DNA from: Actinomyces respiraculi | GTDB taxonomy: Bacteria > Actinomycetota > Actinomycetes > Actinomycetales > Actinomycetaceae | NCBI RefSeq assembly: GCF_014595995.2 | Contig: NZ_CP063989.1 | Coordinates: 2,542,001-2,606,000 of the forward strand | Direction of reading: 5' to 3' | Length of the DNA stretch: 64,000 nt | In this document: in pieces, positions 2,308 to 33,834 of the stretch | Position numbering within the stretch: position 1 is the first letter of the stretch | Layout of the letters: each line of letters starts with the position of its first letter | The notes under the pieces: generated by a model | The model's database searches: none | Told to the model about the DNA's origin: nothing | Seen by the model: the letters and a program-made list of their open reading frames with translations, nothing else | Made by a program: the position numbers and the translations under genes

Positions 2308-2520
2308 CCACCAGCGGGCACTTCGGACCACCAGCGGGCACTTCGGACCACCAGCGGGCACTTCGGACCACCAGCGGGCACTTCGGACCAGCAGCGGGCA
2401 CTTCGGACCAGCAGCGGGCACTTCGGACCAGCAGCGGGCACTTCGGACCAGCAGCGGGCGGTTCGGACCAGCGATGAACGCGTCTTAGGTGGTCCAAGCG
2501 AGGGAAGGCGGTCCGAATAC
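2308..2520 (+). repeat. 20-bp tandem array with inverted end copies (TTCGGACC family)
   Basis: Eight head-to-tail units with an exact 20-bp period fill 2308-2467. Four begin CCACCAGCGG and four begin CCAGCAGCGG, and the last differs at two bases. The core TTCGGACC starts at 2322 and recurs every 20 bp. Beyond a short conserved block (ATGAACGCGTCT at 2474) come inverted cores GGTCCAA (2491) and GGTCCGAA (2510). The array begins 17 bp after the ABC transporter stop. No ORF, CRISPR-type spacer or transposase is associated. A diverged relative lies at 3731-3830, on the far side of the next gene. Confidence 0.9.
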
Positions 2521-2603
2521 AGCACATCCGGGGCGCGCACCCGATTCTGGATCCGCGCAACCCGCCGTCGGAGCCGAATACAGCACATCCGGGGCGCGCA
2601 CCC
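2513..2603. repeat. Pair of 30-bp direct repeats spaced 61 bp
   Basis: Bases 2513-2542 and 2574-2603 are identical over 30 bp (beginning CCGAATACAGCACATCCGGG), 61 bp apart start to start. The first copy overlaps the last inverted core of the adjacent array. The remaining sequence to 2753 contains a TTATCCACA 9-mer near 2704 but no gene. Confidence 0.9.
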
Positions 2604-2753
2604 CGACAACCTGATCCGACCGTGTACGGATTCTCCCGAACGGCGATGATCGCGAAGAGGCCCGGTCTCCACAGGGACCTCCCGCTCACCCCCCTGGGAG
2701 AGTTATCCACACGTGCCCGGCACCGCGGGGACCACACGGTGCACAGTGACCTC

Positions 2754-3683
2754 ATGTGGACCTCACCAATTCCCATTCACCTCTCCCACGACCTGGCAGC
2801 CGCGGGGAAACGCCGCGACTACCTGTCCCGCCGCGCCCGGCCTCCGAGCAACGACCTCATCCGACTCCTTCGCGGAGCGTACGTCCAGCGGCAGGATCTG
2901 GAGGGCCTGTCCCACGCACGCGCTCACGAGGTCTCCATCCACGCTGCCAGGCTCACGGGACTCCTCACCGAGGGCGCGGTCCTGGCTCGGGAGTCTGCGG
3001 CGGTCATGCTCGGAATACCTCTGGTCGGAGCATTGCCGCACCAGGTCCAGGTCGTGCGACGCGGGAGGGACGGAGGACGGAGCACCCCGGGAGTGCGGAC
3101 GCTGCGCGCCTCAGGGGACTACCAGAGCCTCACCCGGGACGGGGTCGAGATCTCATCGGTCGCCCAGACCCTCGCCGACCTCGCCAGGCGCCGCCCCCTG
3201 TGGTCAGTGCTACCGGGCTTGGACGCCATGCTGCGCTCAGGGCAAGTCACCAAGGACCAGATCACCTCCTTAGCGTCTCCAGGGAGTCACGGCCGGACCC
3301 GTCTCCTGCACGCAGTCGCTGTCGCGGACCCTGCCTCAGAGTCGGTTGGCGAGTCCTTGAGTCGAGCCGTCATGATCGAGGAGAACGTCCCCTTACCCGA
3401 GCTTCAGGAGACAGTCCGGAGCGCCCAGGGCGAGTTCCTGGGCCGCGTTGACTTCATCTGGCCCCAGGCAGGGGTGATCGGCGAGTTCGATGGTCACGTC
3501 AAGTACTCGGGTCAGCTCACCGGGCGCAATCTTGACACCGTCCTTCTTGATGAGAGACGCCGAGAGATCGACATTGAACGCGCCACCGGGATGCGAGTTG
3601 TCCGTTGGCTCTGGGAGGACGCCTTCAAACGCACCGGTATGCTGCGCGTCCTGGCCGACGTCGGGATCCGTCCAGTGCATTGA
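2754..3683 (+). CDS. AbiEi-like/DUF559-like protein with PD-(D/E)XK-type C-terminus
   Basis: A protein of about 309 residues resembling the actinobacterial proteins annotated as type IV toxin-antitoxin AbiEi-family antitoxin or DUF559. The N-terminal part contains a basic helical region (LSRRARPPSNDLIRLLRGAY) typical of the AbiEi-like winged-helix module. The C-terminal part has the pattern GRVDFIWP, then GEFDGHVKY, then VVRWLWED, which resembles the D...ExK core and final strand of Vsr/PD-(D/E)XK nuclease folds. No toxin partner is adjacent, so an antitoxin role is not supported by context. The ATG at 2754 is preferred because the residues upstream look non-coding, but the ribosome site is weak. 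Related repeat arrays flank the gene on both sides. Confidence 0.75.
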   Translation: MWTSPIPIHLSHDLAAAGKRRDYLSRRARPPSNDLIRLLRGAYVQRQDLEGLSHARAHEVSIHAARLTGLLTEGAVLARESAAVMLGIPLVGALPHQVQVVRRGRDGGRSTPGVRTLRASGDYQSLTRDGVEISSVAQTLADLARRRPLWSVLPGLDAMLRSGQVTKDQITSLASPGSHGRTRLLHAVAVADPASESVGESLSRAVMIEENVPLPELQETVRSAQGEFLGRVDFIWPQAGVIGEFDGHVKYSGQLTGRNLDTVLLDERRREIDIERATGMRVVRWLWEDAFKRTGMLRVLADVGIRPVH

Positions 3684-3730
3684 ACGGTGCTGGTAGCAGG
3701 TGTCTGTGCCCACGCGCTCGCACCCGCCCG

Positions 3731-3830
3731 GATTGGACCGCCAACGGGCGGCTTGGACTATCAACGGGCAGTACGGACCATCTATGAACGCGTCTCATGT
3801 GGTCCAAACAGGGGACGGCGGTCCGAAACG
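3731..3830 (+). repeat. Second, diverged TTGGACC/TTCGGACC-family array
   Basis: Three forward cores (TTGGACC at 3733, TTGGACT at 3753, ACGGACC at 3773) keep a 20-bp period. They are followed by ATGAACGCGTCT and two inverted cores, GGTCCAA (3801) and GGTCCGAA (3820), 19 bp apart exactly as in the array at 2308-2520. The 308-bp gap between the AbiEi-like gene and the channel gene holds only this array plus the channel's leader. Confidence 0.85.
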
Positions 3831-3991
3831 CGGCACAGTGCACTGCGGTGAGATCACGCATGGTTGCCCGCGTTCCCAGGTACGCCACCAGGAGCGGGGC
3901 AGGCCTCCACGTTCTCGGCTCCAGCAGTGCCCGCCTACACTGCGAGTCGGCGCGCACGCGCCCTTCCCACCACGAACCGGAGGTCCTCCAC

Positions 3992-4999
3992 GTGACTAGC
4001 CCCGCAGCACCCTGGCGCCAGCGCCTGGATGACTGGGTCCACTCCCCCGCGGTCCAGAACCTCGTCATGGCGGTGATCCTCATCAACTCCGTAACCATCG
4101 GCGTTGAGACGGCGGTGACGCACGAGAGCCTGGCGCACCACGTGCTCGCAGTCATCGACCGGGTGGCCCTGGCGATCTTCGTTGTTGAGATCGCCGTCAA
4201 ACTGGTGGCCATCGGGCCGCGGCGCTTCTTCACGCGCGGCTGGAATGTCTTCGACTTCCTCGTCGTGGCGGTCGCGCTTGTGCCCGGCGCCGGGCCGCTG
4301 TCGGTGCTGCGGACGCTGCGCGTGCTGCGACTGCTACGGGTTATCAAGTTCATGCCGAGCCTGCGCCTGGTTGTCGAGGCGCTGCTGCTGTCCCTGCCGG
4401 GCATCAGCGCCATCGCGGTGCTCATGTCTATGGTCTTCTACGTTGGCGCCGTCATGTCCACCACGATGTTCGGTGAGGCGTTCCCGGACTGGTTCGGCTC
4501 CATCGGGGCTTCGCTGTACTCCCTGTTCCAGATCATGACGCTGGAGAGCTGGTCCATGGGGATCGTGCGCCCGGTCATGGAGGTCTACCCGTGGGCCTGG
4601 GCGTTCTTCGTGCCCTTCATCCTGGTGTCGGCCTTCACCATGCTCAACCTGTTCGTCGCGGTCATCGTCGACACCATGAGCTCGGTGGCAGCCGAGAAGA
4701 ACGCGCAGGCGACGACGGCGGGCCAGGAGGAGACCGGGGTTGAGAGCCAGATCGCGGCTGCGGCACAGGCCGCGGAGGAGGTCGTCGCCGACGGCTGGCA
4801 CCCGGGCGAGCCGATGTCCGCCCAGCGGGGACCCGCTGCGGAGACCGGTGCCGGTGTGGGTGCCGCTGCCCTGGCGAGGGTTGGAGCCGACGCCGAGACG
4901 GGTGCCGAGGCCGGTGCAACCGACGCCAGCGCCGCCGTCCTCGCCGAGTTCCGCATCCTGCGCGAGGAGATCGCCGCACTGCGCGCCTCACTGGCATAG
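3992..4999 (+). CDS. Voltage-gated sodium channel of the NaChBac/NavAb family
   Basis: A 335-residue ion transport protein with six membrane segments, acting as a homotetramer. S4 carries arginines at every third position (LRTLRVLRLLRVIKF, R107, R110, R113, R116). The selectivity filter is TLESWSM (183-189), the Na+-selective filter type of bacterial Nav channels, followed by GIVRPVMEVYPWAW and S6. A long Ala/Gly/Thr-rich tail ends in a short predicted coiled coil (about 318-335), matching the tetramerising C-terminus of the family. Start is GTG at 3992 with CGGAGG nine bases upstream. No neighbour suggests a specific role. Membrane excitability or Na+ homeostasis is inferred from the family only. 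Confidence 0.95.
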   Translation: MTSPAAPWRQRLDDWVHSPAVQNLVMAVILINSVTIGVETAVTHESLAHHVLAVIDRVALAIFVVEIAVKLVAIGPRRFFTRGWNVFDFLVVAVALVPGAGPLSVLRTLRVLRLLRVIKFMPSLRLVVEALLLSLPGISAIAVLMSMVFYVGAVMSTTMFGEAFPDWFGSIGASLYSLFQIMTLESWSMGIVRPVMEVYPWAWAFFVPFILVSAFTMLNLFVAVIVDTMSSVAAEKNAQATTAGQEETGVESQIAAAAQAAEEVVADGWHPGEPMSAQRGPAAETGAGVGAAALARVGADAETGAEAGATDASAAVLAEFRILREEIAALRASLA

Positions 5000-5035
5000 C
5001 CCCGCGTCCGCACCACTTCCACCGCGTCCGCACCA

Positions 5036-5245
5036 GGACAACCTGGGCGCGTGAGGACAGCTCCGTCTCGGACTTGTTCCAAGCCAGTGCCAGCCCGGAC
5101 AACCTGCGCGCGTGAGGACAACTCCGCCATCCCCGACGGCGCCCGCATGCGTTCCGTGGACAACCTGCGCGCGTGAGGACAACCTGCGTGCCTCCACCAG
5201 GTGGTCCTACGAGCAGCACGTTGTCCTGAGAGCGCCAGGTTGTCC
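5036..5245. repeat. GGACAAC-family array, 61-bp and 19-bp periods
   Basis: A block with two GGACAAC cores 19 bp apart recurs at 5036 (degenerate), 5097 and 5158, exactly 61 bp apart each time. Inverted cores GTTGTCC follow at 5220 and 5239, again 19 bp apart. The 413-bp region between the channel gene and the next operon contains this array, a short CCGCGTCCGCACCA duplication just after the channel stop, and presumably the downstream promoter. No gene is seen. Confidence 0.88.
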
Positions 5246-5412
5246 TGAGAACGGCGGGTACCGCCCGCGCGCGACGGAGACTGCGCGCCTGGTACTTGCG
5301 TGCTCACACTCCGTCGGGCGCCCAGATGTGAGAACCTGGCACCGGCAAAGACGCGCGAGTACCGTTGCACGCAGAGTCCGTCACACCCCCCTCACCGAAG
5401 GCTCCGTCCCAC

Positions 5413-5853
5413 ATGACCCAGCACCAGCCGCCCTCGGGCGCTCCCGGTTCCCAACCCTCGCTCGGCGAGCTCGTCGCCCGGATCTCTGAGAACGTCACCG
5501 GTCTCGTCAAGGGCGAGATCGAGCTCGCCAAGGCCAAGGGCAAGCGCATGGCCGTCTCGCTCGGCCTCGGCGCCGGCCTGCTCGCCGCCGCCGGCGTGCT
5601 CGCCCTGTACGCCCTCGGGATGCTTCTGAGCGCGGCCGCCTGGGGCATCGCCGAGGCGCTGTCCCCCTGGGCCGGCCACCTCATCGTCGCCGTGCTGCTG
5701 CTCGTGATCGTGGCCGTGCTCGCCCTCGTGGGCGTCAACCGTCTCAAGGCCGCCCAGAAGGATGTCCCCGCACCGCAGGAGGGCCTCAAGGCCGACGTCG
5801 CCGTCGCCAAGGCCGCCCTGCAGGATGGCCTGGAGAGGGGCAGCGCGAAGTGA
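5413..5853 (+). CDS. Phage_holin_3_6 (DUF1469) family membrane protein
   Basis: A 146-residue protein with a soluble N-terminus, an amphipathic segment (SLGELVARISENVTGLVKGE) and two membrane helices (about 50-73 and 88-113), then a charged tail. This is the actinobacterial DUF1469 layout. The family name mentions holin, but nothing phage-like is nearby and the gene leads a chromosomal operon. Its stop overlaps the next start by four bases (GTGA). The ATG at 5413 follows a weak CGAAGG. Such proteins are usually found with DUF3618 partners, as here. Molecular role unknown. Confidence 0.8.
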   Translation: MTQHQPPSGAPGSQPSLGELVARISENVTGLVKGEIELAKAKGKRMAVSLGLGAGLLAAAGVLALYALGMLLSAAAWGIAEALSPWAGHLIVAVLLLVIVAVLALVGVNRLKAAQKDVPAPQEGLKADVAVAKAALQDGLERGSAK

Positions 5854-6347
5854 GCACCAGTGACTACGGCACCACCGCCCCCCAGGGAACGGGTTCCGGG
5901 GGCCCCTCCGCCGCCGAGATCGCGGCCAGGGCCCGTGCCCGGCGGGCCGCCAAGGCCGCACTCAGCCCCGAGGGGATCGAGGCTGATCTCGCCGACCGCC
6001 GCGCCCGCCTCGCCTCGGACCTCGCCATCCTGGGCGCCCACCTGGCCCCGGAGGCGCTCAAGACGCGGGCGGCCTCCTCGGCGCGCGAAGCCGTCACCCA
6101 GGCACGGGTCGGCTTCACCTCGGCCCTCTTTCCCGCCCGGGCCGGCGCAACCAGGCAGTCGGAGAACACCGGCGTCGGCTACGGCTCCGCGCCGCTCGCC
6201 CCGCCCCCGAGCATCCTGGACCGCGTCAACCGTCTGCTCGACGACGCTCGCGACGGCGACCCGGCCTCGCTGGGGATCGTCACCGGCGCGAGCCTGATCC
6301 TCGCGGGCGTGAGCGTGTTCGCCGCTCTCAAGGCGCTGCGCCGATGA
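5850..6347 (+). CDS. DUF3618-like protein with C-terminal hydrophobic segment
   Basis: A 165-residue protein starting at a GTG overlapping the preceding stop. Residues about 45-75 (IEADLADRRARLASDLAIL and following) resemble the helical DUF3618 repeat found again in the next gene. A hydrophobic stretch near the C-terminus (LGIVTGASLILAGVSVFAAL) could anchor it in the membrane. It is the middle gene of a three-gene unit joined by 4-base overlaps. Function unknown; a cell-envelope role is a guess from the membrane-protein partner. Confidence 0.75.
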   Translation: MSTSDYGTTAPQGTGSGGPSAAEIAARARARRAAKAALSPEGIEADLADRRARLASDLAILGAHLAPEALKTRAASSAREAVTQARVGFTSALFPARAGATRQSENTGVGYGSAPLAPPPSILDRVNRLLDDARDGDPASLGIVTGASLILAGVSVFAALKALRR

Positions 6348-6679
6348 GCGAGGTGCAGCCCTCCACCCCGGAGGAGATCGAGGCCCGTCTGCAAGCCACG
6401 CGCACCCAGCTCGCAGCCAGTGTCGACGCCCTGGTGGAGCGCGTCTCGCCTCAGGCTCAGGCCCGTGCGGCGGGCGAGCACCTGGGCACACGCCTGGCTC
6501 AGGAGCGCGACAGGCTTGTGGACCGGGTCAGCGAGATGCGCCGTCGCACTGTGGAGACGGTCGAACGGGCCCGAGCTGGCGACAAGGAAGCGCTGCGCAC
6601 GGTCGCGGTAATTGCGGGAGGAGCGGTCGCCGTAACGGCGGCTCTCGGCTCGCTGCGGCGCCGAGGTCCTCATCACTGA
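6344..6679 (+). CDS. DUF3618 domain protein
   Basis: A 111-residue protein beginning with the DUF3618 signature (PEEIEARLQATRTQLAASVD, residues about 8-27), a charged helical middle, and one hydrophobic segment (TVAVIAGGAVAVTAALGSL) near the end. ATG overlaps the previous TGA. Last gene of the DUF1469-DUF3618 unit. The following 200 bp show no gene. Confidence 0.82.
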   Translation: MSEVQPSTPEEIEARLQATRTQLAASVDALVERVSPQAQARAAGEHLGTRLAQERDRLVDRVSEMRRRTVETVERARAGDKEALRTVAVIAGGAVAVTAALGSLRRRGPHH

Positions 6680-6880
6680 GCAGTGCTGAGGGCGTCTGAG
6701 TGCAACTGAACTGCGCTGAGGACCACCATCGGCCGGGGCCACCGACGGCTCCGGGGCGTCCTCCCTCACACGGCACCGAATGGCCATTTACTAGGGCGTG
6801 GATATAGGCTCGCCCCACGACACATTTGCCCGCGTGATGCGCGCCTCGCGCGCCAGAGATTGTTGGAGGGGGTCGAGCCT

Positions 6881-7087
6881 ATGGGGCGCGGCCGTCAGAA
6901 GGCCAAGGCGACGAAGGTCGCCCGCAAGCTCAAGTACTTCAGCCCGGAGACCGATTACGCGGCTCTCGAGCGCGAGCTCGTCAGCGCGTCCAGCGGTGCC
7001 GAGGCTGACGACGAGATCGACTACGAGGAGCTGGCCTCCAAGTACAACGTGGACGACGACGAGTGGGACGACTCCGAGGAGAAGTGA
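6881..7087 (+). CDS. DUF3073 domain-containing small protein
   Basis: A 68-residue protein starting MGRGRQKAKATKVARKLKYF, the highly conserved beginning of the actinobacterial DUF3073 family, with an acidic C-terminus (DDDEWDDSEEK). The ATG at 6881 has GGAGGGGG eight bases upstream and matches the conserved family start. In many actinobacteria this gene sits next to purM/purF, as it does here in convergent orientation. Function unknown; the basic head and acidic tail suggest nucleic-acid or ribosome contact. Confidence 0.9.
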   Translation: MGRGRQKAKATKVARKLKYFSPETDYAALERELVSASSGAEADDEIDYEELASKYNVDDDEWDDSEEK

Positions 7088-7126
7088 CCCCCTCGCCATT
7101 CCCGGCGCGTCAACACCTCTTACAGA

Positions 7127-7161
7127 CAAGGGCCGGCAGGGACACCCCCTGTCGGCCCTTG
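7127..7161. terminator. Hairpin between the DUF3073 gene and purM
   Basis: Arms CAAGGGCCGGCAGGG and CCCTGTCGGCCCTTG pair with a single mismatch around a short loop. It lies 40 bp after the DUF3073 stop and 54 bp beyond the purM stop on the other strand, so it can serve both converging genes. There is no strong T-tract. Confidence 0.75.
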
Positions 7162-7214
7162 CGTTGTCTCACCGACCTGTCCGGCTCCAGCCAAGGGGGT
7201 ATTGAGCCTGCCGC

Positions 7215-8363
7215 TCAGGCGGTGCGGTAGCTGCCGTGGATGTCGACGGCGCCGCCGTCGACCCCCTTCGTACCCGCCACCACGCGCCCGCGGGAGACAT
7301 GACCCTCGCCGCTGTGCACCGAGCCGAGCACCCAGGCCGGCACGCCCGCAGCCTCCGACAGACGCAGGACCTCGTCCACCGCCTCGGGGGCCACCACCGC
7401 GACCATGCCCACGCCCAGGTTGAGCGTGGACTCCAGGTCCTCCCACGGCACGGAGCCGAGCGTGCGCACGAGGTCGACGACGGCCGGGACCGTCCAGGAG
7501 CCGCGGTCCACATCGCCCACCAGCCCGGCGGGCAGGACACGGGCAAGATTGGCGGCCAGGCCTCCCCCGGTGACATGGCTGAAGGCGCGCACGCGCAGTG
7601 CCGCGGGGTCGGCGTCGGCCGGGTCGATGGCCTCCACGAGGTCGAGGCACAGGGCGGAGTACAGGCGGGTGGGCTCCAGCAGCTCCTCGCCGAGCCTGCG
7701 TCCGAGCTCGGGCACGTGGCGGTCCAGGGCCCATCCGGCATGTTCGACGACGCGGCGCACCAGCGAGTAGCCGTTGGAGTGCAGGCCGGAGGCCGCCAGC
7801 GCCACCAGCACGTCGCCGGTGCGCACACGCTCGGCCCCGAGCATCCGGTCGGCCTCAACCACGCCCGTGGCGGCGCCCGCGACGTCGTACTCCTCCGGTC
7901 CCATGAGGCCGGGGTGCTCGGCGGTCTCCCCACCCAGCAGCGGGGTGCGCACCTGGGCGCAGGCCTGGGCCACACCGCGCACGATGTCAGCGATCCGCTC
8001 GGGCACGACGTGCCCGCAGGCGATGTAGTCCGTCATGAGCAGCGGGCGGGCGCCCGTGACGGCGATGTCGTCAACGACCATGCCAACGAGGTCCTGGCCG
8101 ATGGTGTCGTGCACGTCCATGGCCTGGGCGATGGCGACCTTCGTGCCCACGCCGTCGGTAGAGGTCGCCAGAAGCGGACGGCGGTACTCGCGCAGCTCGG
8201 AGACGTCAACCATGCCGGCGAAGCCGCCCACACCGCCGACGACGGCCGGGGTCATGGTCGCGGCCACCGAGGCCTTCATGAGTTCGACGGCGCGGTCGCC
8301 CGCCGCGGTGTCCACGCCCGCGGAGGCGTAAGTGATGGCGGGCCGGGTGGGTGCGGTGCTCAC
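7215..8363 (-). CDS. purM: Phosphoribosylformylglycinamidine cyclo-ligase (AIR synthetase)
   Basis: A 382-residue PurM, catalysing ATP-dependent closure of FGAM to aminoimidazole ribotide, step five of purine synthesis. Characteristic segments are the N-terminal ITYASAGVDTAAGDRAVELM, the phosphate/ATP-binding STDGVGTKVAIAQ, VDDIAVTGARPLLMTDY, the LGGETAEHPG loop and the ASGLHSNGYSLVR segment. Length is slightly above the usual 340-350 because of N- and C-terminal extensions. GTG start overlaps the purF stop by four bases (GTGA), giving a purF-purM transcription unit, the arrangement usual in actinobacteria. Confidence 0.97.
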   Translation of the reverse strand: MSTAPTRPAITYASAGVDTAAGDRAVELMKASVAATMTPAVVGGVGGFAGMVDVSELREYRRPLLATSTDGVGTKVAIAQAMDVHDTIGQDLVGMVVDDIAVTGARPLLMTDYIACGHVVPERIADIVRGVAQACAQVRTPLLGGETAEHPGLMGPEEYDVAGAATGVVEADRMLGAERVRTGDVLVALAASGLHSNGYSLVRRVVEHAGWALDRHVPELGRRLGEELLEPTRLYSALCLDLVEAIDPADADPAALRVRAFSHVTGGGLAANLARVLPAGLVGDVDRGSWTVPAVVDLVRTLGSVPWEDLESTLNLGVGMVAVVAPEAVDEVLRLSEAAGVPAWVLGSVHSGEGHVSRGRVVAGTKGVDGGAVDIHGSYRTA

Positions 8364-10108: not shown

Positions 10109-10162
10109 GGCCACATCCTTTCACACCGGTACCCGGCGGGCGCGGGCCTGCGCCGGAGGCGG

Positions 10163-10220
10163 GCGGGTGCTGCGCGGCTGCCGGAGGCAGGGCGGGTGCC
10201 GCGCGGCTGCCGGAGGCAGG
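10163..10220. repeat. Tandem 29-bp duplication upstream of purF
   Basis: Two adjacent 29-bp units (10163-10191 and 10192-10220) differ at one base and begin GCGGGTGCTGCGCGGCTGCC. They lie between the purF start and the 20-bp array. Confidence 0.85.
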
Positions 10221-10270
10221 GCAGGCCGAGCAGGCGAGCGCGATGACCCGAAACCCGCCCGCCCGGGCAC

Positions 10271-10420
10271 GTTGACCTCGTTCCCTTGCCGTCGATCTCG
10301 TTGCCCAGCGGTTGATCTCGTTCCCTTGCCGTCGATCTCGTTGCCCAGCGGTTGATCTCGTACCTTCACGGGACGAGGTCGACACGCAAGGGACGAGATC
10401 AACGCTCACGCTCCGAGATG
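10271..10420. repeat. CTCGTT-family array upstream of purF, 5 forward and 3 inverted units
   Basis: Forward cores CTCGTT (in GTTGATCTCGTTCCC-like units) start at 10277, 10297, 10317, 10337 and 10357, an exact 20-bp period with two alternating unit types. The fifth is imperfect (CTCGTA). After about 10 bp, inverted cores (ACGAG, the third degenerate) start at 10373, 10393 and 10413, again every 20 bp. A further small duplication (GGCACGACACTGGACACG) lies at about 10438-10480. The 390-bp purF/RNB-gene interval contains no gene. Confidence 0.92.
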
Positions 10421-10499
10421 GACGAGCGGGGGACGGCGGGCACGACACTGGACACGTCGGCAGGCACGACGCTGGACACGACGACAGGCGCCGCGCGGC

Positions 10500-12050: not shown

Positions 12051-12128
12051 GGTCCGAACCTACCCGGCACCAGTAGGGCCGTCGCCCCCGCCCCCGCGGT
12101 GTCGTGGTGCGCGGAGCCGCGGGGCGGC

Positions 12129-12240
12129 CGGGCCGCCAGAGGGCACCGCTGCGGGGCGCCCGGGCCACCAGAGCACACCGACGCAGGACGAACCGGGCCA
12201 CCAGAGCACACCGCCGCAGGACGACCCGGCCACACCGCGG
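12129..12240. repeat. 32-33-bp tandem repeat between fruA and the RNB gene
   Basis: Three and a half imperfect units, each starting CCGGGCCACCAGAGCACACC or a close variant, begin at about 12129, 12160 and 12193 with a partial fourth. No coding potential is apparent. The rest of the 285-bp gap holds the fru terminator. Confidence 0.8.
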
Positions 12241-12258
12241 CCTCGCAGGCCCGGGCAC

Positions 12259-12300
12259 GGCGAGCGCCGACCGTCCGGGTCGGGACGGTCGGCGCTCGCC
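12259..12300 (-). terminator. Terminator of the fruRKA operon
   Basis: A perfect 18-bp stem (12259-12276 with 12283-12300, starting GGCGAGCGCCGACCGTCC) around a 6-base loop, 35 bp beyond the fruA stop on the minus strand. Confidence 0.85.
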
Positions 12301-12335
12301 ATGGCGTCGGGACGCCCGGTGCGGGCCCGGTGCGC

Positions 12336-14435: not shown

Positions 14436-14560
14436 GCTACTTCCTTGAGTCGCAGGGGCGGTGACGGGGTTGGTGGATGGTGGTCGTGTTGGTCGGTGGG
14501 CCGCGTCATGGTCGGCACCGCCGCCATGACCGCCCTGGAGGGTCGGTGGCGGGGCGGGGG

Positions 14561-16356: not shown

Positions 16357-16385
16357 CGGAACCTCCTCGTACCGGGACACTCCCC

Positions 16386-16466
16386 TTCGGATGTCCGTCC
16401 AGGCATGAGCCTACGCCCGTTCGGACATGAATGGAAGGGGTGGGCGCCGCTTCGGACACGAATGGA
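16386..16466 (-). promoter_or_regulatory. Candidate FruR operators upstream of fruR
   Basis: Read on the operon strand, TGTCCGAA occurs twice (16420-16427 and 16451-16458) inside near-identical 17-bp elements (TCCATTCATGTCCGAAC and TCCATTCGTGTCCGAAG) spaced 31 bp. A third variant, CATCCGAA (16386-16393), lies closest to the gene. Position and helical spacing suit a DeoR-type repressor. Binding by FruR is inferred. Confidence 0.55.
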
Positions 16467-18308: not shown

Positions 18309-19658
<1,350 letters not shown>

Positions 19659-19790
19659 TCATCGAATCGTGTACGGCCGCCTGGGCCTGAGCCTTGACAA
19701 CCACGTACAGACTTCCACTTGGCCGGTAACTGAGAAGAAACATCTCATTGCACGGCTAGGTTCTGAGGCCTGACGGGCGGTCCCGCCCCC

Positions 19791-19945
19791 TCGCCCGTCC
19801 ACCTCGTTCCTCGCCCGTCCACCTCGTTCCTCGCCCGTTGACCTCGTTCCTCGCCCGTTGACCTCGTTCCTCGCCCGTCCACCTCGTTCCTTGAAGGGAC
19901 GAGATCGATGCACGAGGGACGAGATCACCTGCTGGGGAACGAGAT
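19791..19945. repeat. CTCGTT-family array upstream of gdhA, 5 forward and 3 inverted units
   Basis: Five 20-bp units of the form TCGCCCGTCCACCTCGTTCC run from 19791 to 19890, and two have GTTG for GTCC. Three inverted cores ACGAG(ATC) follow at 19899, 19919 and 19939, again every 20 bp. The 483-bp gap between gdhA and the next plus-strand gene contains this array and a less GC-rich gdhA leader (19660-19760) that should hold its promoter. Confidence 0.92.
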
Positions 19946-20129
19946 CGACCAGACAGGCCAGGGCTCAACGAGCAGCCGCCCAGGCCGGGCCTTGCCGCGT
20001 CCCATGACCTCGGCTCCTCACCCACACTCCTGCCCACGCGACGTCGTACCGCCGTCAGGCTCCGTCGTCAGGTACCTCCGGTCCAGGGCCGCTCTTGACC
20101 GGTCACCATGCTCGTCCTGACCGAGCACC

Positions 20130-20417: not shown

Positions 20418-20451
20418 GCCTCCGCCACCATCCCGCGCCCACCCGCCCTCG

Positions 20452-20511
20452 AGATCCTCGGCGCCGAGCGCACGCCGATTCGCCGTGCGCTCGGCGGCAA
20501 ACCGAGGATCT
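20452..20511 (+). terminator. Long bulged hairpin after the small membrane protein
   Basis: Outer arms AGATCCTCGG and CCGAGGATCT enclose a perfect 13-bp inner stem (CGCCGAGCGCACG). The right side has a GCAAA bulge and the loop is 9 bases. It is well placed to end transcription of the 20130-20417 gene. Confidence 0.75.
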
Positions 20512-20512
20512 G

Positions 20513-20631
20513 GGCCGGGTGACACATCAGGCCGGGTGACACGTCAGGCCGGGTGACACGTCAGGCCGGGTGACACGTCAGGCCGGGTGACACGTCAGGC
20601 CGGGTGACACGTCAGGCCGGGTGACACGTCG
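20513..20631. repeat. Seven 17-bp tandem units (GGCCGGGTGACACGTCA)
   Basis: Seven consecutive 17-bp units; five are identical, the first has ACATCA and the last ends CGTCG. The array starts two bases after the preceding hairpin and ends 57 bp before the next gene. Unlike the other arrays it has no clear inverted copies. Each unit contains GTGAC and ACGTC half-sites. Confidence 0.93.
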
Positions 20632-20688
20632 GGGCGACGGGGGTGCGACGTCGCAGGACAACGGTGATAGGTCTGAGACGCTAGTGCG

Positions 20689-22412: not shown

Positions 22413-22502
22413 GAGCGAACCTTCGGACGGGGAACAGGGCGTGCGCCATCCTAGCCGGTGCTGCCCGCTCCACCCGCCTGCTCCGGGTCAGGCGCCGTCG
22501 GG

Positions 22503-24872: not shown

Positions 24873-24921
24873 GTGGGCATCGTCCCACGCGGGCCGGGCG
24901 CGCGTGGGGCGAGCGCGAGAC

Positions 24922-27315: not shown

Positions 27316-27523
27316 GCGGCTGCTCCTGTGGGCGGGTGTGGAGTGGGCCGTCTCAAAGAATACCCGCGGTCCTGGCGGGCCTCCCCATCCCCGGGCAGCC
27401 GCCCATTGACCTCACACGCAGCGGGTGCGCAGGCCCACCAGCATCCCCTCGCGTGTACGTCGCACCCCCAACACACCCCCTGAAAGTGCTGCGTGTCACA
27501 GTCAAACAGGGCAGGATTTCAGC

Positions 27524-28948
27524 ATGAGAACCATCGACGTCGCCCCGCTTCCACTGTCGGACCTCGAGAGCCACCTTGATGAGGTCGCTGTCCGTCGGCT
27601 GCACGACGGCGTCGAGGCCGCCCACGCCCTGCTCGACAGCCGCACCGTCTGGACCATCACGCCGTCGGCAGCCGCCTCCTCCGGTCCCGCCGAGATCGTA
27701 GCGCCACTCGTGGGCTACGCCCGAGGCCTGGGCATCGACGCCCGTTGGCTGACGCTCGATGCCCCGGCTGAGTTCGTCACCCTCGCCACGCGCCTGAACG
27801 ACTTCCTTCACGGCGCAGCCGGTGACGGCGGCAAGCTGGGAGACAAGCAGCGGGACCTGTACGAGCACGTCCTGGCCTCCAACGCGGACAACGTCATTGA
27901 GGACGTGCGCGACGGCGACGTCGTCATCCTCCACGACCCGGCCACGGCCGGCCTGGCCGAGGCGTTCACGCGTGCGGGCGCGACCGTCCTGTGGCGTCTG
28001 CACGTTGGTGTGGCCGACGCCGGTGAGGCCGGCCAGCACGCCTGGGCCTTCCTGGACGACTACCTGGAGAACGTCGATCTCATCATCGCCTCACGCCCGG
28101 AGTACCTGCCGCCCTATGTGGAGGAGGAGCACACGGCCATCATTGCCCCCTCCATCAACCCGGACTCGCCCAAGAACCGAGTGCTCGACCTCGACGAGGC
28201 CCGCTCAGTGGTGCGCCTGGCCGGGTACGTGGCCGGTCAGGCACCCTTCGACGCCGTCCCCCTCATTCGTGAGGACGCCCGCCCTGACGCTTTCCGGGGG
28301 TTGGCTGAGGAGGAGGCCTTCGGGACCGACCATCCCGTGCCGGAGGGCGCCAGGACGATCACGCAGATCCAGCGCTGGGACCGCCTCAAGGGCGGCAAGG
28401 AGCTGCTGGACGCCTTCGCGACGCACATCGGCGTGCTGCCCGCGGACGCGCACCTTGTCATCGCGGGGCCGGTGCCCGACCCGGAGCGTGAGCCGGCGGC
28501 GGCCGCCGTCCTGGAGGACATCACGGAGCGGCTGGCCACGCTGCCGGAGTCGACGGCGGCGCGGGTGCACCTGCTGGGAATCCCGAGCACGGACCGCGAG
28601 GTCAACGCCACGATTGTCAACGCCCTGCAGCGCGTGAGCACGGTGGTCACACAGCGCTCGCTGGTCGAGGCCTTCGGCCTGACGGTGGCCGAGGCGATGT
28701 GGAAGAAGGCGCCGGTGGTGGCCTCCGCCGTCGGCGGCATTCAGGAGCAGGTGGAGGACGGTGTCACGGGCGCGCTCGTGCCCGCCGACGACGACCTTGC
28801 GTGGGCGACGGCGGCGGCCGACCTCCTGCTGTTCACGGAGCGGGCGCAGGAGATGGGGGATGCGGCCCACGAGGCGGTGCGTCGTCGCTACCTGCCGGAC
28901 CGCCACCTCATCGAGGTCGTGGACGCGATCGCCCGGGCGCTGGGGTAG
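27524..28948 (+). CDS. GT4 glycosyltransferase resembling trehalose synthase TreT
   Basis: A 474-residue GT-B fold protein. The N-terminal half (TVWTITPSAAASSGPAEIVA, then GIDARWLTLDAPAEFVTLATR and NDFLHG) matches the TreT/trehalose phosphorylase family, and VILHDPATAGLAEAF follows. The C-terminal half has the donor-site pattern QRSLVEAFGLTVAEAMWKKA with the EX7E glutamates, then VASAVGGIQEQVEDG. TreT makes trehalose reversibly from an NDP-glucose and glucose; the exact acceptor here is uncertain. ATG has AGGA eight bases upstream. It is divergent from purL, and a hairpin follows the stop. Confidence 0.82.
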   Translation: MRTIDVAPLPLSDLESHLDEVAVRRLHDGVEAAHALLDSRTVWTITPSAAASSGPAEIVAPLVGYARGLGIDARWLTLDAPAEFVTLATRLNDFLHGAAGDGGKLGDKQRDLYEHVLASNADNVIEDVRDGDVVILHDPATAGLAEAFTRAGATVLWRLHVGVADAGEAGQHAWAFLDDYLENVDLIIASRPEYLPPYVEEEHTAIIAPSINPDSPKNRVLDLDEARSVVRLAGYVAGQAPFDAVPLIREDARPDAFRGLAEEEAFGTDHPVPEGARTITQIQRWDRLKGGKELLDAFATHIGVLPADAHLVIAGPVPDPEREPAAAAVLEDITERLATLPESTAARVHLLGIPSTDREVNATIVNALQRVSTVVTQRSLVEAFGLTVAEAMWKKAPVVASAVGGIQEQVEDGVTGALVPADDDLAWATAAADLLLFTERAQEMGDAAHEAVRRRYLPDRHLIEVVDAIARALG

Positions 28949-28995
28949 GCGCCGGGGCTTCGGGACAGAACCTCCGGGACTGGGGCCCGGGAACT

Positions 28996-29025
28996 GGTGG
29001 GTCGGGTCTGCGGTCCCGGCCCACC
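28996..29025 (+). terminator. Hairpin after the TreT-like gene
   Basis: Arms GGTGGGTCGGG and CCCGGCCCACC (one G:T pair) around an 8-base loop, 48 bp after the stop. Confidence 0.6.
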
Positions 29026-29087
29026 GTGCTGTTCGGGAACCTCTCGCCGGGTCGCGGTCCGACGGCGAGGGCACCGGGTGACCGGAG

Positions 29088-29422
29088 TTATCCACACCCT
29101 GGATCCACAGCCTTGTGCACATGAGGCTGTGGGTGCCGGGATGACGCTGTTCTCCCTGTGGCTACCCGGCGGCAACCACCTCACAGCATCGGTACGAGGG
29201 CCGCCGAGCAGCATCCCAGGTACTTGTCAACCTACCCATAACCACCTTGAATCGTCGTGATTACGGCGTTTTACTCAGGGTACCCTGAGTTCCGCGCAAC
29301 AATTTCCGTGTGATCCCACGGCGCACACAGGTTCACGTCAGGACGGCCCGTTACCCTGTTGTCAGACCTTCATCGGCGTGAATCACAGCCGATATATCCA
29401 CAGCCCCGCCGGATTATCCACA
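29088..29422. other. Gene-free, less GC-rich region with DnaA-box-like 9-mers
   Basis: The 616-bp interval between two converging genes contains TTATCCACA at 29088 and 29414, ATATCCACA at 29394, and GGATCCACAG at 29101. The last opens an 8-bp inverted repeat (CCACAGCC / GGCTGTGG, 29105-29132). There is also a perfect 18-bp palindrome at 29273. No protein or known RNA gene is recognised. TTATCCACA is the consensus DnaA box, but replication genes are absent, so an origin is not claimed. Confidence 0.6.
29273..29290. promoter_or_regulatory. Perfect 18-bp palindrome ACTCAGGGTACCCTGAGT
   Basis: The sequence is its own reverse complement over 18 bp with no loop, so it is better suited to a dimeric DNA-binding protein than to an RNA hairpin. 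It lies in the gene-free interval, 275 bp from the end of purQ. TTGAAT and TTTACT upstream could form a weak promoter. Confidence 0.5.
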
Positions 29423-29507
29423 AGCCCGGGCCACACCGTGCGCCGGTACCCGCACCGGCGCGTACTCCGGTGCCACCCCGGCAGCAAGCGTCACTCCAAC
29501 GGCAGGC

Positions 29508-29531
29508 GGCGCCACCCCTGAGGGTGACGCC
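29508..29531 (-). terminator. Hairpin after purQ
   Basis: Arms GGCGCCACCC and GGGTGACGCC pair with one mismatch around a 4-base loop, about 35 bp past the purQ stop. Confidence 0.6.
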
Positions 29532-29564
29532 ACCCCACGCGAGATACGGGCCCAAGACCGTTCT

Positions 29565-30263
29565 TCAGGCACCCACCAGCATGCTGATCACCGACTGGAA
29601 CAGCGTGAGGCCGTCCGTGCCGGTACGCGGGCCCGCCTCGGAGTCCGGCCCGAAGCCCGGCTCCACCGCATGCTCGGGGTGCGGCATGAGACCCACCACG
29701 TTGCCGCGCGCGTTGCGCACGCCGGCGATGTCGTTGACCGAGCCGTTCGGGTTGAAGCCCACGTAGCGGAAGACCACGTGCCCCTCCCCCTCAAGGCGCT
29801 CGACCTCCTGAGGGGAGGCGATGAAGTTGCCCTCACCGTTCTTCAGCGGGACAGTGAGCTCCTCACCCTCCTTAAGCAGGCCGGTCCACGCCGTCGACGT
29901 CGACTCCACCCGCAGACGCTGCTCGCGGCACACGAAGCGCTGGTGGTCGTTGCGGATGAGCGCCCCCGGCAGCAGGTGCGCCTCGGCGAGGATCTGGAAG
30001 CCGTTGCAGATGCCCAGCACGGGCATGCCCTTGCCGGCGGCCTCAATGACCTCGTCCATCACCGGGGCGAAGCGGGCAATGGCGCCGCAGCGCAGGTAGT
30101 CGCCGTAGGAGAAGCCACCGGGCACGACGACGGCGTCGACACTGCGCAGGTCTGCGTCCTTGTGCCACAGCGAGACGGGCTCAGCCCCGGCCAGGCGCAC
30201 CGCGCGCAGGGCGTCGACGTCATCCAGCGTGCCGGGGAAGGTGATGACGCCGATGCGGGCCAT
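29565..30263 (-). CDS. purQ: Phosphoribosylformylglycinamidine synthase, glutaminase subunit
   Basis: A 232-residue class I glutamine amidotransferase that supplies ammonia to PurL. The catalytic cysteine is in [11 protein letters not shown], and the His/Glu pair is in [26 protein letters not shown] is also conserved. Its ATG shares one base with the purS stop (TGATG), so the two are translationally coupled. Confidence 0.97.
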
Positions 30264-30520
30264 CAGGCCTCCTCGCCGTCGGCCCGCACGGACACGACGT
30301 CCTCGATGATCGGGTTCGACAGGAGCGTCTGGGCGGCCTCGGCGGCGGCGGCCAGGTGGGCGTCGGTCACGGGCCCCTCCACCGTCAACTCGAAGCGACG
30401 GCCCTGGCGGACCGCGGTGAACTGGTCGAATCCGAGCCGCGGGAGGCTGCCGACGACGGCCTTGCCCTGGGGGTCAAGGATCTCGGGCTTGGGCATGACC
30501 TCGACGATGATGCGTCCCAT
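30263..30520 (-). CDS. purS: Phosphoribosylformylglycinamidine synthase, PurS subunit
   Basis: An 85-residue PurS, the small dimer that bridges PurQ and PurL. It has the family pattern: a first strand [17 protein letters not shown], then [20 protein letters not shown], and a C-terminal helix with [10 protein letters not shown]. Directly upstream of and overlapping purQ. It is divergent from padR, with 154 bp for both promoters. Confidence 0.96.
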
Positions 30521-30594
30521 CAGTACTCCTGGGTGGGCGGGTGGGGTGCGGGCACGACTCTACCCGTGCGTGGCGCCGTCCACGCCCGTCGGCG

Positions 30595-30650
30595 TTGACA
30601 CACACACCTCGTACTTCTAGGGTTACTGATACCTAGTAGCGTTAGGTATC
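30595..30650 (+). promoter_or_regulatory. padR promoter with overlapping inverted-repeat operator
   Basis: TTGACA (30595-30600) and TAGGGT (30618-30623) are spaced 17 bp. Immediately downstream, covering the expected start site, is the inverted repeat GATACCT - 9 bp - AGGTATC (30628-30650). This is the size and position expected for an autorepressing PadR dimer. Binding is inferred. Confidence 0.72.
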
Positions 30651-30674
30651 GGTATCCGTCCGTCCGGAGGTGAC

Positions 30675-31106
30675 ATGACGCTGTCCAAGGACCTCGTCGC
30701 CGCCTCGGCAACCCCGATGGTCCTGCTCGTGCTATCCACCGGCCCCGACTACGGCTACTCGATCCTGCGCCGCATCGCCGAGGCCTCCGACGGCCAGCTC
30801 GAGTGGTCCGAGGGACTCCTCTACCCCCTCCTCCACCGCCTTGAGCGCGCCGGTCGCATCAGCGCCCAGTGGGGTGTGGCCGACTCCGGCCGGCGGCGCA
30901 AGTACTACACCCTCACGTCCGACGGCGCCGCCGAGCTCGCCTCCCTCGAGGCCCAGTGGCAGCTCGCCGCCAGGACCATCAACGCCCTGCGCGAGGCCGC
31001 GAGCGCTGCCACTACCCCCGCCCACGCCACTGTCCCGAGCGCCACCCCGGGCGCCCCCTCGTCAACCGCCCCCACCCCAGGGCCCCGCCCGAAGGAGAGA
31101 GCATGA
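30675..31106 (+). CDS. PadR-family transcriptional regulator
   Basis: A 143-residue protein with the PadR winged helix: LVLSTGPDYGYSILRRIAEA, then WSEGLLYPLLHRLERAGRI, and the wing GRRRKYYTLTSDG. The C-terminal helix is followed by an Ala/Pro/Thr-rich tail of about 35 residues. GGAGG lies just before the ATG. The gene overlaps the next by four bases (ATGA). This two-gene layout (PadR plus a permease-prefix membrane protein) is common, with the regulator controlling its own operon. Confidence 0.93.
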   Translation: MTLSKDLVAASATPMVLLVLSTGPDYGYSILRRIAEASDGQLEWSEGLLYPLLHRLERAGRISAQWGVADSGRRRKYYTLTSDGAAELASLEAQWQLAARTINALREAASAATTPAHATVPSATPGAPSSTAPTPGPRPKERA

Positions 31107-32503
31107 GTACCCCGTCCACTCCCCCAGCCCCACCGGAGACGGCCGCCGAGCAGCTCGCCGCCTGGCGCACCCTCATGCTCGCGCGCCCCGCCATGAACGC
31201 CGACGACGTCGCCGAGCTTGAGAGCCACCTGCTCGACCAGGCTGCGGACCTGCGCGCCGTCGGCCTCACCGAGGACGAAGCCTTCCTCATCGCCATGCGA
31301 CGGCTGGGCGGGCAGGACGCCGTCGCCCGTGAGTACGCCCAGATCCACACCGAACGTCTGTGGCACCGCCTCGCCGTCGCCCGCTCCACCGCCGACGGCG
31401 AGGCGCAGGACGGGTGGGCCGCACGGGGCCCCTGGCTCGCGATCCTTCTCGGCCTCGCCGCCGGGCTGGCCGTGCGTCTGCCCGCCGAGCTGCACCTGCC
31501 CGATCTAGATGTCTTCTACGCCCTCAACATCTCCTTCCTCGTCCTACCCTTCCTCGCCGCCTACCTCGCCATCCGCTCCCGGGCGTGGCACAGCCCCGCA
31601 GGTCGCGGCGGGCTCATCGCCCTGGCCGTCACCGGCGTCATCAGCGTCGTCGTCGTCAATGTCCTGCCGCTGGACGATCAGTCGCAGAGCCTCCTGCTCA
31701 CCACTGTCCACCTGCCCGTAGCGCTGCTCCTGCTCACCGGCGCCGCCTACCTTGGTGGCCGCTGGCTGCGGGTCGAGGCGTGGATGGACTGGCTGCGGTT
31801 CCTCGGGGAGTCCGTCATCTACTACGTCCTCATCGCCATGGCGGGCGGCGCACTCGTCGCACTCCTCGGCGCCGCTTTCCTCACGGTGTGGGACTATTCG
31901 GTCCTCGACACCGCACTCAATTGGGTCATCCCCGTGTGCGCCGCTGGCGCCGTCCTCGTCGTCGCGTGGCTCGTAACCCTCAAGCGCAGCGCCATAGAGA
32001 ACATGGCGCCGGTGCTCACCGCCGTCCTCACCCCCTTCCTCACCCTCGCCCTGCTCGGGTTCCTCCTCGTCGTCGTCATCAGCGGTGGGCCGCGGAACGT
32101 CGAACGCGGCACCCTCATCGGCTTCGACCTGCTCCTCGTCGTCGTCGCCGCGATCGTCCTGTTCACCGTCTCCGCGCGCGCCCCCGAGGCCCACGCCGGG
32201 CTGCTGGAGCGGATGCACCTGGCGATGATCCTCGCCGCCCTCGCCGTCGACCTCATCATGCTGTGGGCGATGTCCGAGCGGCTGCTCGTGTGGGGCGCGA
32301 CCCCCAACAAGGTGTCGGCTCTCGGTCTCAACCTCCTCCTGCTCCTCCACCTGGCGGGCTCCGCCTGGCACTACGTGGGCGTCATCCACCGCTCCCGCAC
32401 GTCGCTGGCGCTGGAGCGTTGGCAGTGCCTCGCCGTGCCCGTCTTCAGCGCGTGGTGCCTTGTCGTCGCCCTCGTCCTGCCGCTGGTGCTGCGCTACCAG
32501 TAG
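31103..32503 (+). CDS. Membrane protein with N-terminal permease prefix domain
   Basis: A 466-residue protein. The soluble N-terminus (about 15-85) matches the permease prefix domain, for example VAELESHLLDQAADLRAVGL and the EDEAFLIAMRRLGG segment. About ten membrane helices follow (from about 110 to 464). The prefix domain usually occurs with PadR regulators and antimicrobial or stress-response permeases; the substrate is unknown. ATG at 31103 overlaps the padR stop and follows GAAGGAGA. Likely co-regulated through the operator upstream of padR. Confidence 0.82.
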   Translation: MSTPSTPPAPPETAAEQLAAWRTLMLARPAMNADDVAELESHLLDQAADLRAVGLTEDEAFLIAMRRLGGQDAVAREYAQIHTERLWHRLAVARSTADGEAQDGWAARGPWLAILLGLAAGLAVRLPAELHLPDLDVFYALNISFLVLPFLAAYLAIRSRAWHSPAGRGGLIALAVTGVISVVVVNVLPLDDQSQSLLLTTVHLPVALLLLTGAAYLGGRWLRVEAWMDWLRFLGESVIYYVLIAMAGGALVALLGAAFLTVWDYSVLDTALNWVIPVCAAGAVLVVAWLVTLKRSAIENMAPVLTAVLTPFLTLALLGFLLVVVISGGPRNVERGTLIGFDLLLVVVAAIVLFTVSARAPEAHAGLLERMHLAMILAALAVDLIMLWAMSERLLVWGATPNKVSALGLNLLLLLHLAGSAWHYVGVIHRSRTSLALERWQCLAVPVFSAWCLVVALVLPLVLRYQ

Positions 32504-32581
32504 GGCATGCTGCCAGTCGGGTCGGCTGCGCGGCCAGTCGGCCCGCAGCCCCGGCGGCGGCTCGGACTCACAGCCCCGCTC

Positions 32582-33496
32582 TCACAGCCCCAGCGGCTCG
32601 CCTGTCAGACGCTCGTAGGCCTCCAGGTAGCGGGCGCGCGTGCGCTCGACCACCTGCTCCGGCAGCGCCGGCGGTTCCCCTGAGGCACGGTCCCAACCCG
32701 AGGCCGGGCTGGTCAGCCAGTCGCGCACGAACTGCTTGTCGAAGGACGGCGTCACCTGGCCCGGGGCCCACTCGTCAGCGGGCCAGAACCGCGAGGAGTC
32801 CGGGGTCAGCACCTCATCGCCCAGCACCAGGGCGCCGTCCGCGCCCGCACCCAGCTCGAACTTCGTGTCCGCCAGGATGATGCCGCGCTCGCGCGCGATC
32901 TCGGCCGCCCGCGAGTAGAGGGCGAGCGTCACCTCGCGCAGGGCCGTCGCCGTCGGCTCACCGACCATCTCGACCACCCGCGCGAAGGAGACGTTCTCGT
33001 CGTGGTCACCCAGCGCCGCCTTCGCCGCCGGGGTGAAGACCGGCTGGGGCAGGCGCGAGGCCTCGACCAGGCCCTCGGGCAGGGCCACGCCGCACACCGA
33101 CCGCGAGGCCCGGTACTCCACCAGCCCGGAGCCGGTGAGGTAGCCGCGGGCCACACACTCCACCGGGTACATGTCCAGGCGGCGGCACACCATCGCGCGC
33201 CCCGCCACCTCAGCGGGCACGTCCGTGACCGAGACCATGTGGTTCGGCACGATGTCCGCCAGCTGCTCGAACCACCAGGCCGACATCGCCGTGAGCACCT
33301 TGCCCTTGTCGGGCACCGGTGTGCTCAGGACGTAGTCGAAGGCGCTGATGCGGTCCGAGGCGACGACGAGGAGCACGTCCTGACCGGCCCAGGGGCCCTC
33401 GTCGGCGGGGGCGTAGACGTCACGGACCTTCCCGGAGGACACGTGGCTCCATCCGACGAGCGCGGGGGCCGGCGGGATGATGGGGGCGGGGCTCAT
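32582..33496 (-). CDS. purC: Phosphoribosylaminoimidazole-succinocarboxamide synthase
   Basis: A 304-residue SAICAR synthetase that condenses CAIR with aspartate. Motifs include [11 protein letters not shown] at the N-terminus, [28 protein letters not shown] and [10 protein letters not shown], with [13 protein letters not shown] near the end. Length fits the longer actinobacterial/yeast-like form. The ATG at 33496 begins the conserved protein, but the ribosome site is poor. The upstream 591 bp contain two repeat arrays and no gene. Confidence 0.96.
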
Positions 33497-33684
33497 GGGG
33501 ACATCGTGCCACCCGCGCCGTGGCGGCCGGCTCAACGGCCGGCTGAGCGGGTGGCGGGTGGCGCCCGTCCCCCGGCGCCCGGCCCCCGCACCCGCACCCG
33601 TGCGCCCGCTCTCGCTCTCGCAGTCCACCCCCGCTCCAGCAGCTCGCGCGACCCCCACACCTGCGACCGGGCTCCGCGCGCGTC

Positions 33685-33834
33685 GGGTTGATCTCGTTCC
33701 CCGCGGGTTGATCTCGTTGCCCGCGGGTTGATCTCGTTGCCCGTGCGTTGATCTCGTTCGTTGAGGGAACGAGATCAACGGTTCGCGAACGAGATCGACG
33801 GCCCTCGAACGAGATCGACGACGGGGGGAACGAG
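33685..33834. repeat. CTCGTT-family array upstream of purC, 4 forward and 4 inverted units
   Basis: Forward units GGGTTGATCTCGTTCCCCGC and variants place CTCGTT at 33693, 33713, 33733 and 33753. Inverted AACGAG units place ACGAG at 33769, 33789, 33809 and 33830. The period is 20 bp apart from the last step, and the two halves meet at a short GTTGA spacer. This is the most symmetrical of the three arrays in this family and could fold into a long hairpin. Confidence 0.93.

Follow-up and report, generated by a model that had tools for sequence, protein, structure and literature searches.

What are the short words, repeated at a fixed step first forward and then inverted, that lie between the genes of Actinomyces respiraculi? 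The question is raised by the 64,000-nucleotide stretch analyzed here (the window; positions 2,542,001–2,606,000 of the single 2.91-Mb contig of this genome, NZ_CP063989.1), in which a first-pass annotation had described six such arrays, beginning near window positions 2308, 3731, 5036, 10271, 19791 and 33685. By reading the sequence, running Tandem Repeats Finder (TRF) and comparing other genomes of the genus, we found conserved cores, regular steps, dyads, species-specific dialects of the core word and avoidance of coding sequence, and for arms of the word GAGATCGG in other genomes a direction and a place at stop codons as well. From these we infer protein binding and a role in marking gene 3′ ends. 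The reading that we tentatively favor, with less than even confidence, is that the arrays are tandem sites, at gene 3′ ends, of a putative DNA-binding protein that evolves fast, and that they possibly act as roadblock terminators.

All six arrays were recovered at the places first reported, each with forward and then inverted copies:

2305–2514, + strand: GGACC array, forward cores every 20 bp from 2325 to 2465, the copy at 2305 degenerate; these are followed by a center with ACGCGTCT and inverted GGTCC at 2491 and 2510.
3735–3824, + strand: GGACC array, forward cores at 3735, 3755 (GGACT) and 3775; inverted GGTCC at 3801 and 3820.
5037–5245, + strand: GGACAAC array, forward cores at 5037, 5097, 5116, 5158 and 5177; inverted cores at 5201 (degenerate, GTGGTCC), 5220 and 5239.
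10274–10420, + strand: GAYCTCGTT array, five forward and three inverted cores.
19800–19946, + strand: GAYCTCGTT/CACCTCGTT array, five forward and three inverted cores.
33690–33816, + strand: GAYCTCGTT array, four forward and three inverted cores.

The arrays share a layout, as claimed, but their cores are not all different: they form three families, GGACC (two arrays), GGACAAC (one) and GAYCTCGTT (three). The reported period of 20 bp among forward and 19–20 bp among inverted copies was borne out for five arrays, with 20 bp forward and 19 bp inverted in those at 2308 and 3731 and 20 bp in those at 10271, 19791 and 33685; TRF covers 2303–2472 of the first at period 20 with 97% matches. The array at 5036 does have the 19-bp spacing ascribed to it; its left arm includes larger gaps. 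Where the halves meet, the offset between the last core of the forward half and the first core of the inverted half is 26 (GGACC), 24 (GGACAAC) or 18 (GAYCTCGTT 9-mers). The center ACGCGTCT is common to both GGACC arrays of the window and is found again in GGACC arrays of the genome outside it.

The pattern GAYCTCGTTN{8,14}GAYCTCGTT gave 86 matches in the A. respiraculi genome and none when reversed as a control; with the gap fixed at 11 bases there were 85 pairs here, whereas 48 further genomes from the genus had no pair at all. From the window and 28 fetched regions of the same genome (27 picked by GAYCTCGTT-pair matches and one by a GGACC match) 38 arrays of at least three cores were assembled, and forward cores precede inverted cores in 38/38; three of these arrays consist of two back-to-back units. 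Of 203 same-strand steps, 195 measure 20 bp, six 40, one 60 and one 19. The forward-to-inverted offset is 18 in 41/41 cases, a count relative to the linking rule, which admitted only opposite-strand offsets of 17–19 or 1–3 modulo 20, and three further switches from inverted to forward (offset 37) connect the back-to-back units. Cores come in two flavors, GATCTCGTT and CATCTCGTT, often one flavor per arm, and logos built from exact cores overstate the information content of the core.

Across the genus, arrays of one layout recur with changing cores. By purD the nearest relatives are the genomes labeled here G036 (89%) and G043 (88%). G036 holds many matches to the array at 5036, with one array at the place syntenic to it, and 13 of its regions, picked by similarity to that array, yielded 16 GGACAAC arrays, all convergent (16/16), with steps of 19 bp in 60/64 cases (20 in two, 38 in two) and a dyad offset of 24 in 14/16 (43 in two). 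In a search of 49 genomes, with no control match in any of them, tandem GAGATCGG at 21–23 bp is present in 18, reaching 567 pairs in G017, 295 in G013, 245 in G009 and 234 in G012, and its step is 22 bp in 94/95 cases in G017 and 23 bp in 61/61 in G012. The convergent layout is not general, since GAGATCGG arms are mostly one-directional: 20 stretches with 38 arms yielded a single pair that face each other within 200 bp. The string CGAGATC is common to AACGAGATC of A. respiraculi and CGAGATCGG of the other genomes, in opposite direction relative to the arms.

The dialects were rechecked by counting all 8-mers repeated at 15–30 bp. The top word was ACGAGATC at step 20 in the window (three loci), AGATCGGG at step 23 in G012 (four loci in 120 kb) and ACCGATCT at step 22 in G017 (44 loci in 320 kb); CGGGGACA at 19 in G045 (two loci) and ATGTCCCG/AGATCGGG at 22 in G026 (two loci) were tied with other words, and 400 kb of G043 gave no leading word. 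On this ranking and the pair counts, the word and its step vary from species to species, and arrays are few or absent in some genomes. The first-pass idea that the period places every core on one face of the helix does not carry over: the step is near-constant within a genome but is 19, 20, 22 or 23 bp between genomes, so strict helical phasing is not general. A strict de novo scan over periods 12–40 returned three clusters in the window, at periods 19, 20 and 40 (the cluster at 40 is the array already counted at 20). In relatives it returned five clusters in 780 kb, three with period 19 and one each with 18 and 22, and none in 20 kb of G023; one of the five, L354, looks coding. In a loose scan convergent pairs exceeded shuffles at 18–22 and at other periods alike, and 18–22 was not singled out.

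The position of the arms relative to genes was assessed on arms with at least two exact GAGATCGG copies in 320 kb of G017, 369 kb of G012 and 91 kb of G009 (780 kb together; many G012 and all G009 stretches were picked by array positions). None of the 80 arms lies within a called gene (0/80). Setting aside two arms at stretch edges (n=78), we found 41 arms within 80 bp past a stop codon in the sense direction versus 6 in antisense (binomial p 1.8e-7, which treats arms as independent). The median distance to the stop is 21 bp for sense (n=47) versus 385 bp for antisense (n=45), and codirectional contexts alone gave 16 versus 3 (p 0.004). Closed arrays, with both arms joined, are likewise absent from called genes (0/38 in A. 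respiraculi, 0/16 in G036). They occupy convergent gaps in 11/31 and 8/16 cases and divergent gaps in 2/31 and 1/16, respectively, the A. respiraculi counts omitting 7/38 arrays that have no called neighbor. An earlier gene caller, which misplaced some genes, gave a similar picture (A. respiraculi: 12 +−, 11 −−, 8 ++, 3 −+ and 4 incomplete; G036: 9 +−, 3 −−, 3 ++, 0 −+ and 1 incomplete). Oriented sites just past gene ends, the mark of roadblock terminators, were found for the GAGATCGG arms only, not for the closed arrays of A. respiraculi.

Within the arrays, the exact core is kept at inner register positions in 29/31 cases in G036, 119/127 in A. respiraculi, 68/92 in G017, 42/43 in G012 and 17/17 in G009, and adjacent linkers agree at 0.43, 0.53, 0.58, 0.80 and 0.64 of bases in the same order, a contrast that is strong in G036 and A. 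respiraculi and weak in G012. As cores are more intact than linkers, they seem to be kept singly, like binding sites. This bears on an explanation by RNA, in which long interrupted hairpins formed by transcribed arrays would terminate transcription or shield the 3′ ends of mRNA. The hairpin noted in the first-pass annotation is real for closed arrays, which fold as RNA far better than shuffles (mean z −6.35 for 38 A. respiraculi arrays and −6.76 for 16 of G036), and their frequency in convergent gaps would suit such a role; but the inversion of the cores is enough by itself to account for this fold. Pairing of facing linkers is not above permutation (0.569 versus 0.604 permuted in A. respiraculi, n=65; 0.465 versus 0.497 in G036, n=24), the first base clashes in 61 of 109 facing A. 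respiraculi cores, and 31 one-directional G017 arms of at least three units show no RNA fold (mean z 0.10, 1/31 under −2). Between 2000 and 21000 of the window a single T-tract terminator site was found (17839) versus 3.1 expected by shuffles, and the arrays there have none, which sets them apart from intrinsic terminators with stem-loop and T tract. Since cores outlast linkers, linkers are unpaired and one-directional arms are unfolded, hairpins fail to explain the class, and we consider them an improbable answer. An Rfam search of the window at gathering thresholds returned one tRNA and nothing else, and an Rfam E-value search of 33400–34100 gave two microRNA matches only, far under gathering scores.

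Protein sites at gene ends are favored as a reading because the cores are kept singly and because of the direction bias at stop codons. Each core would be one site for a sequence-specific protein, with word and step varying by species, and the near-constant step would set the packing of the bound protein copies. In the GAGATCGG genomes an arm sits sense-oriented just beyond the stop codon; in A. respiraculi and G036 two arms are joined into one convergent array, which would suit a two-way boundary between genes. Such an array may, for example, block RNA polymerase in a polar manner and so end or insulate transcription. Arrays are also copied about the genome, some along with their flanks. The more far-reaching proposal, which we regard as doubtful, is that a fast-evolving protein and its species-specific sites mark gene 3′ ends throughout the genus. 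The sites would serve as roadblock terminators or insulators that are polar and multi-site and are read along the direction of the gene; where genes converge they would be joined head to head, and one word would give way to another between close species. If the protein reading is true, the arrays would be a rapidly changing, DNA-encoded gene-end mark independent of RNA hairpins, and the site–protein pair would turn over between close species. Co-variation with the dialects offers a way to find the protein.

Several points weigh against protein sites at gene ends. Genes were called with a home-made codon model rather than with a standard caller. By count, GAGATCGG contexts are unbiased (18 ++, 29 +−, 16 −− and 15 −+, with the arm read as +), the excess of convergent over divergent gaps has p 0.013 in A. 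respiraculi and 0.34 in G036 with window gaps of at least 100 bp as comparison, and A. respiraculi arrays, unlike GAGATCGG arms, often lie hundreds of bp off the nearest called stop. The linkers of G012 are conserved too (0.80), and the cores of G017 are intact at just 68/92 positions. No particular gene end requires an array, because those at 10271, 19791 and 33685 are absent in G036: at the places syntenic to the first two, within syntenic blocks 83–94% identical, it has no array, and the purC–purD gaps of G036 and G043 are without one, this gap being too diverged to fix exact ends. Flanks that recur and transposase remnants close by speak for mobility, and we infer both a protein and its effect on transcription.

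A different account, possible though short of probable in our judgment, takes the arrays for non-autonomous mobile elements, in which a convergent array would be the left and right ends of a small transposon with several tandem transposase sites per end and the gene lost, and the position after stop codons would result from the choice of target together with selection against harmful insertions. The 86 pairs of A. respiraculi with none in 48 relatives, and the empty orthologous gaps tested, are consistent with it. So are array subfamilies that have flanks in common at unrelated places of the genome, along with local repeats; subfamily A includes a copy in the window:

33580–33917, + strand: repeated segment of subfamily A, about 340 bp, containing the array at 33690–33816.
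33877–33913, + strand: stub of 37 bp with a match to the right end of IS110-like elements found in the genus.

This segment recurs, whole or in part, at several other places of the genome, and the stub forms its right edge; intact-looking IS110-like copies exist in relatives, and a degenerate one lies directly left of an A. respiraculi array near 554 kb. The first-pass statement that transposases are lacking holds for the arrays themselves, which contain no transposase gene, but this stub does match an IS110-like end. GGACC arrays lie within a repeated segment of about 1.07 kb that has inverted ends and part of an IS481-type gene, and one of them adjoins a fragment of an IS481 transposase gene. 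An IS481 profile matched the genome 25 times (E up to 0.1), and nine of these loci have a convergent array within about 1.5 kb (eight different arrays). IS481-like elements of the genus (L059, L060, L061, L063 and L068) carry inward-facing tandem end repeats of about 25–26 bp, with 1–5 copies per end, and offer the closest model for an autonomous partner; among them only L060 was classified, its best family being IS481 at 190 bits, under the cut-off of 224. The end repeat of L060 contains the stop codon of the transposase. Given the repeated flanks, the unrelated places, the absence at tested sites of relatives and the adjacent transposase remnants, arrays do get copied about the genome. The segment between window positions 2293 and about 5175, which contains two genes besides both GGACC arrays, has no counterpart at that place in G036 and looks like gene-plus-array cargo; its genes are:

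2622–3683: gene of 353 amino acids, no Pfam match.
Within 3797–4999: ion-channel-type gene (PF00520).

Other observations are harder to reconcile with mobile elements. The sense direction at stops and the one-directional arms are unexpected of closed-up transposon ends, and linkers vary more than cores. No transposase with window cores at both ends was found among the IS481 (25), IS110 (8) and IS21-profile (3) matches of the genome, other families not having been searched. By eye, GAYCTCGTT arrays are without clear terminal inverted repeats or target duplication, the compared gap being too diverged, and two arrays searched against plasmids with blastn gave no match. Eight full IS21 transposase loci of the genus had no clusters of any of the three window cores within the fetched flanks. 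A pattern scan of genome contigs for three CTCGTT copies gave a mixed set of at least 120 stretches; IS21 loci in the genomes behind ten of these loci showed no clusters, GCTCG-type words only being inspected, and three IS481-like transposases compared by tblastn with 120 of the loci had no match among the matches listed. If the arrays are mobile all the same, they would be small elements, with transposase sites in several copies, that insert in an oriented way past stop codons. IS21 ends were rejected as origin, the IS21 loci being without core clusters, and IS481 ends had at first been favored through a locus (L076) that was dropped as evidence, its genome holding 567 tandem pairs. Copies of 1,172 bp, 99.7–99.8% identical and with a 379-amino-acid frame, occur at 125, 1831 and 310 kb of the A. 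respiraculi genome (L364, L365 and L366); they are probably a recently active insertion sequence (IS), they look like a separate insertion, possibly of IS630 type, and their nearness to GGACC arrays was taken as accidental.

Sites of a nucleoid or chromosome-organizing protein, with no tie to transcription, would account for tandem sites at a fixed step, many per genome and outside genes. Their direction and closeness to stop codons argue against this, as does a copy number that varies widely by species, from 0 to 567 pairs, and we give it little probability. Less probable by far are DNA uptake sequences, that is, words kept by preferential uptake, with species dialects and inverted pairs at gene ends. 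Isolated CGAGATCGGT in G017 is in excess (11 versus 2.4 expected), as is isolated GGACAACCTG in G036 (14 versus 0.2 expected, a count that includes array copies with varying neighbors in the 10-mer, in a sample chosen by arrays). Against these stand the words in arrays, 155 versus 11 isolated in G017 and 80 versus 6 for CGAGATCGGG in G012, and a fixed step is not needed for uptake. The uptake words of the Neisseriaceae are described as having species dialects, a likeness to the arrays, and they number thousands of copies (PMC3630211), unlike array words, which are found mainly in fixed-step arrays.

Among known systems, the TTF-I Sal-box arrays at the 3′ ends of ribosomal DNA consist of repeated sites. 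Roadblock termination by bound Reb1, Rap1 and LacI, orientation-dependent for Rap1, is described in PMC10310618, and it resembles the arrays in having sites at transcription-unit ends and a direction that can matter. The arrays differ in being bacterial, in numbering up to hundreds per genome and in a word that changes with the dialect. REP, BIME and REPIN sequences are dispersed between genes, many at gene 3′ ends and in head-to-head pairs, as arrays are; their unit is an imperfect palindrome, unlike the non-palindromic array unit with its fixed step, and G017 arms have no fold. Ends of IS21-type elements carry repeated transposase sites. Miniature inverted-repeat transposable elements (MITEs) and IS ends share with the arrays inward tandem sites at two ends and copies at unrelated places, but for the window cores no transposase, clear terminal repeats or target duplications were found. 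MIRU elements are actinobacterial, tandem, intergenic and oriented relative to genes, with a unit of some tens to 100 bp, unlike array steps of 19, 20, 22 and 23 bp, a conserved core with varying linker, and convergent forms. The arrays are not of the CRISPR kind either, with linkers of about 11–15 bp, partly common between units, and convergent halves. No match to a known REP or MITE family, which the first-pass annotation had named as refuting its claim, was found, and a MITE-like origin keeps the sizable minority share given to mobile elements above. No tested known kind matched in full. As first supposed, no element of this architecture appears to have been described: none was found in the open-access literature, subscription papers being outside the scope of the search.

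In the window the array at 2305–2514 follows an ABC transporter gene, whose stop codon is at 2291, and that at 10274–10420 is flanked by two minus-strand genes, the right one of RNase II type. The array at 19800–19946 is upstream of a glutamate dehydrogenase-type gene (minus strand, 18309–19658), and that at 33690–33816 separates a purC-like from a purD-like gene, both on the minus strand.

Small convergent arrays were also seen in relatives, at L337 7573 and 11555 (G045), L323 2248 (G043), L348 1254 (G012) and L353 18607 (G026), with cores CGGGGACA, CGACACC, CGGTCGA and GAGATCGGGACAT in these four genomes. Outside the genus, one-directional arrays of step 20 occur in Fictibacillus (L113, L143, L163 and L173), Sporosarcina (L127, L130, L176 and L179), Bacillus (L155 and L184) and Microbispora (L134). 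In these, which come from the CTCGTT scan, the core is kept (for example ATGCTCGTT and CGCTCGTT) and linkers vary, and the array class may reach beyond the genus.

Other repeats lie in the same genome. TRF found seven copies of a 17-bp unit, GGCCGGGTGACACGTCA, at 20513–20630 of the window (99% matches, one direction), and further tandem repeats at 12116–12233 (period 32), 34001–34093 (period 30) and 62772–63003 (75 bp). At about 691–693 kb of the genome (L311) an IS110-like copy adjoins a repeat, GTGCCCCCGCGTGAGCGGGGATGATCCC, with a step of about 61–62 bp, which we take to be a CRISPR array.

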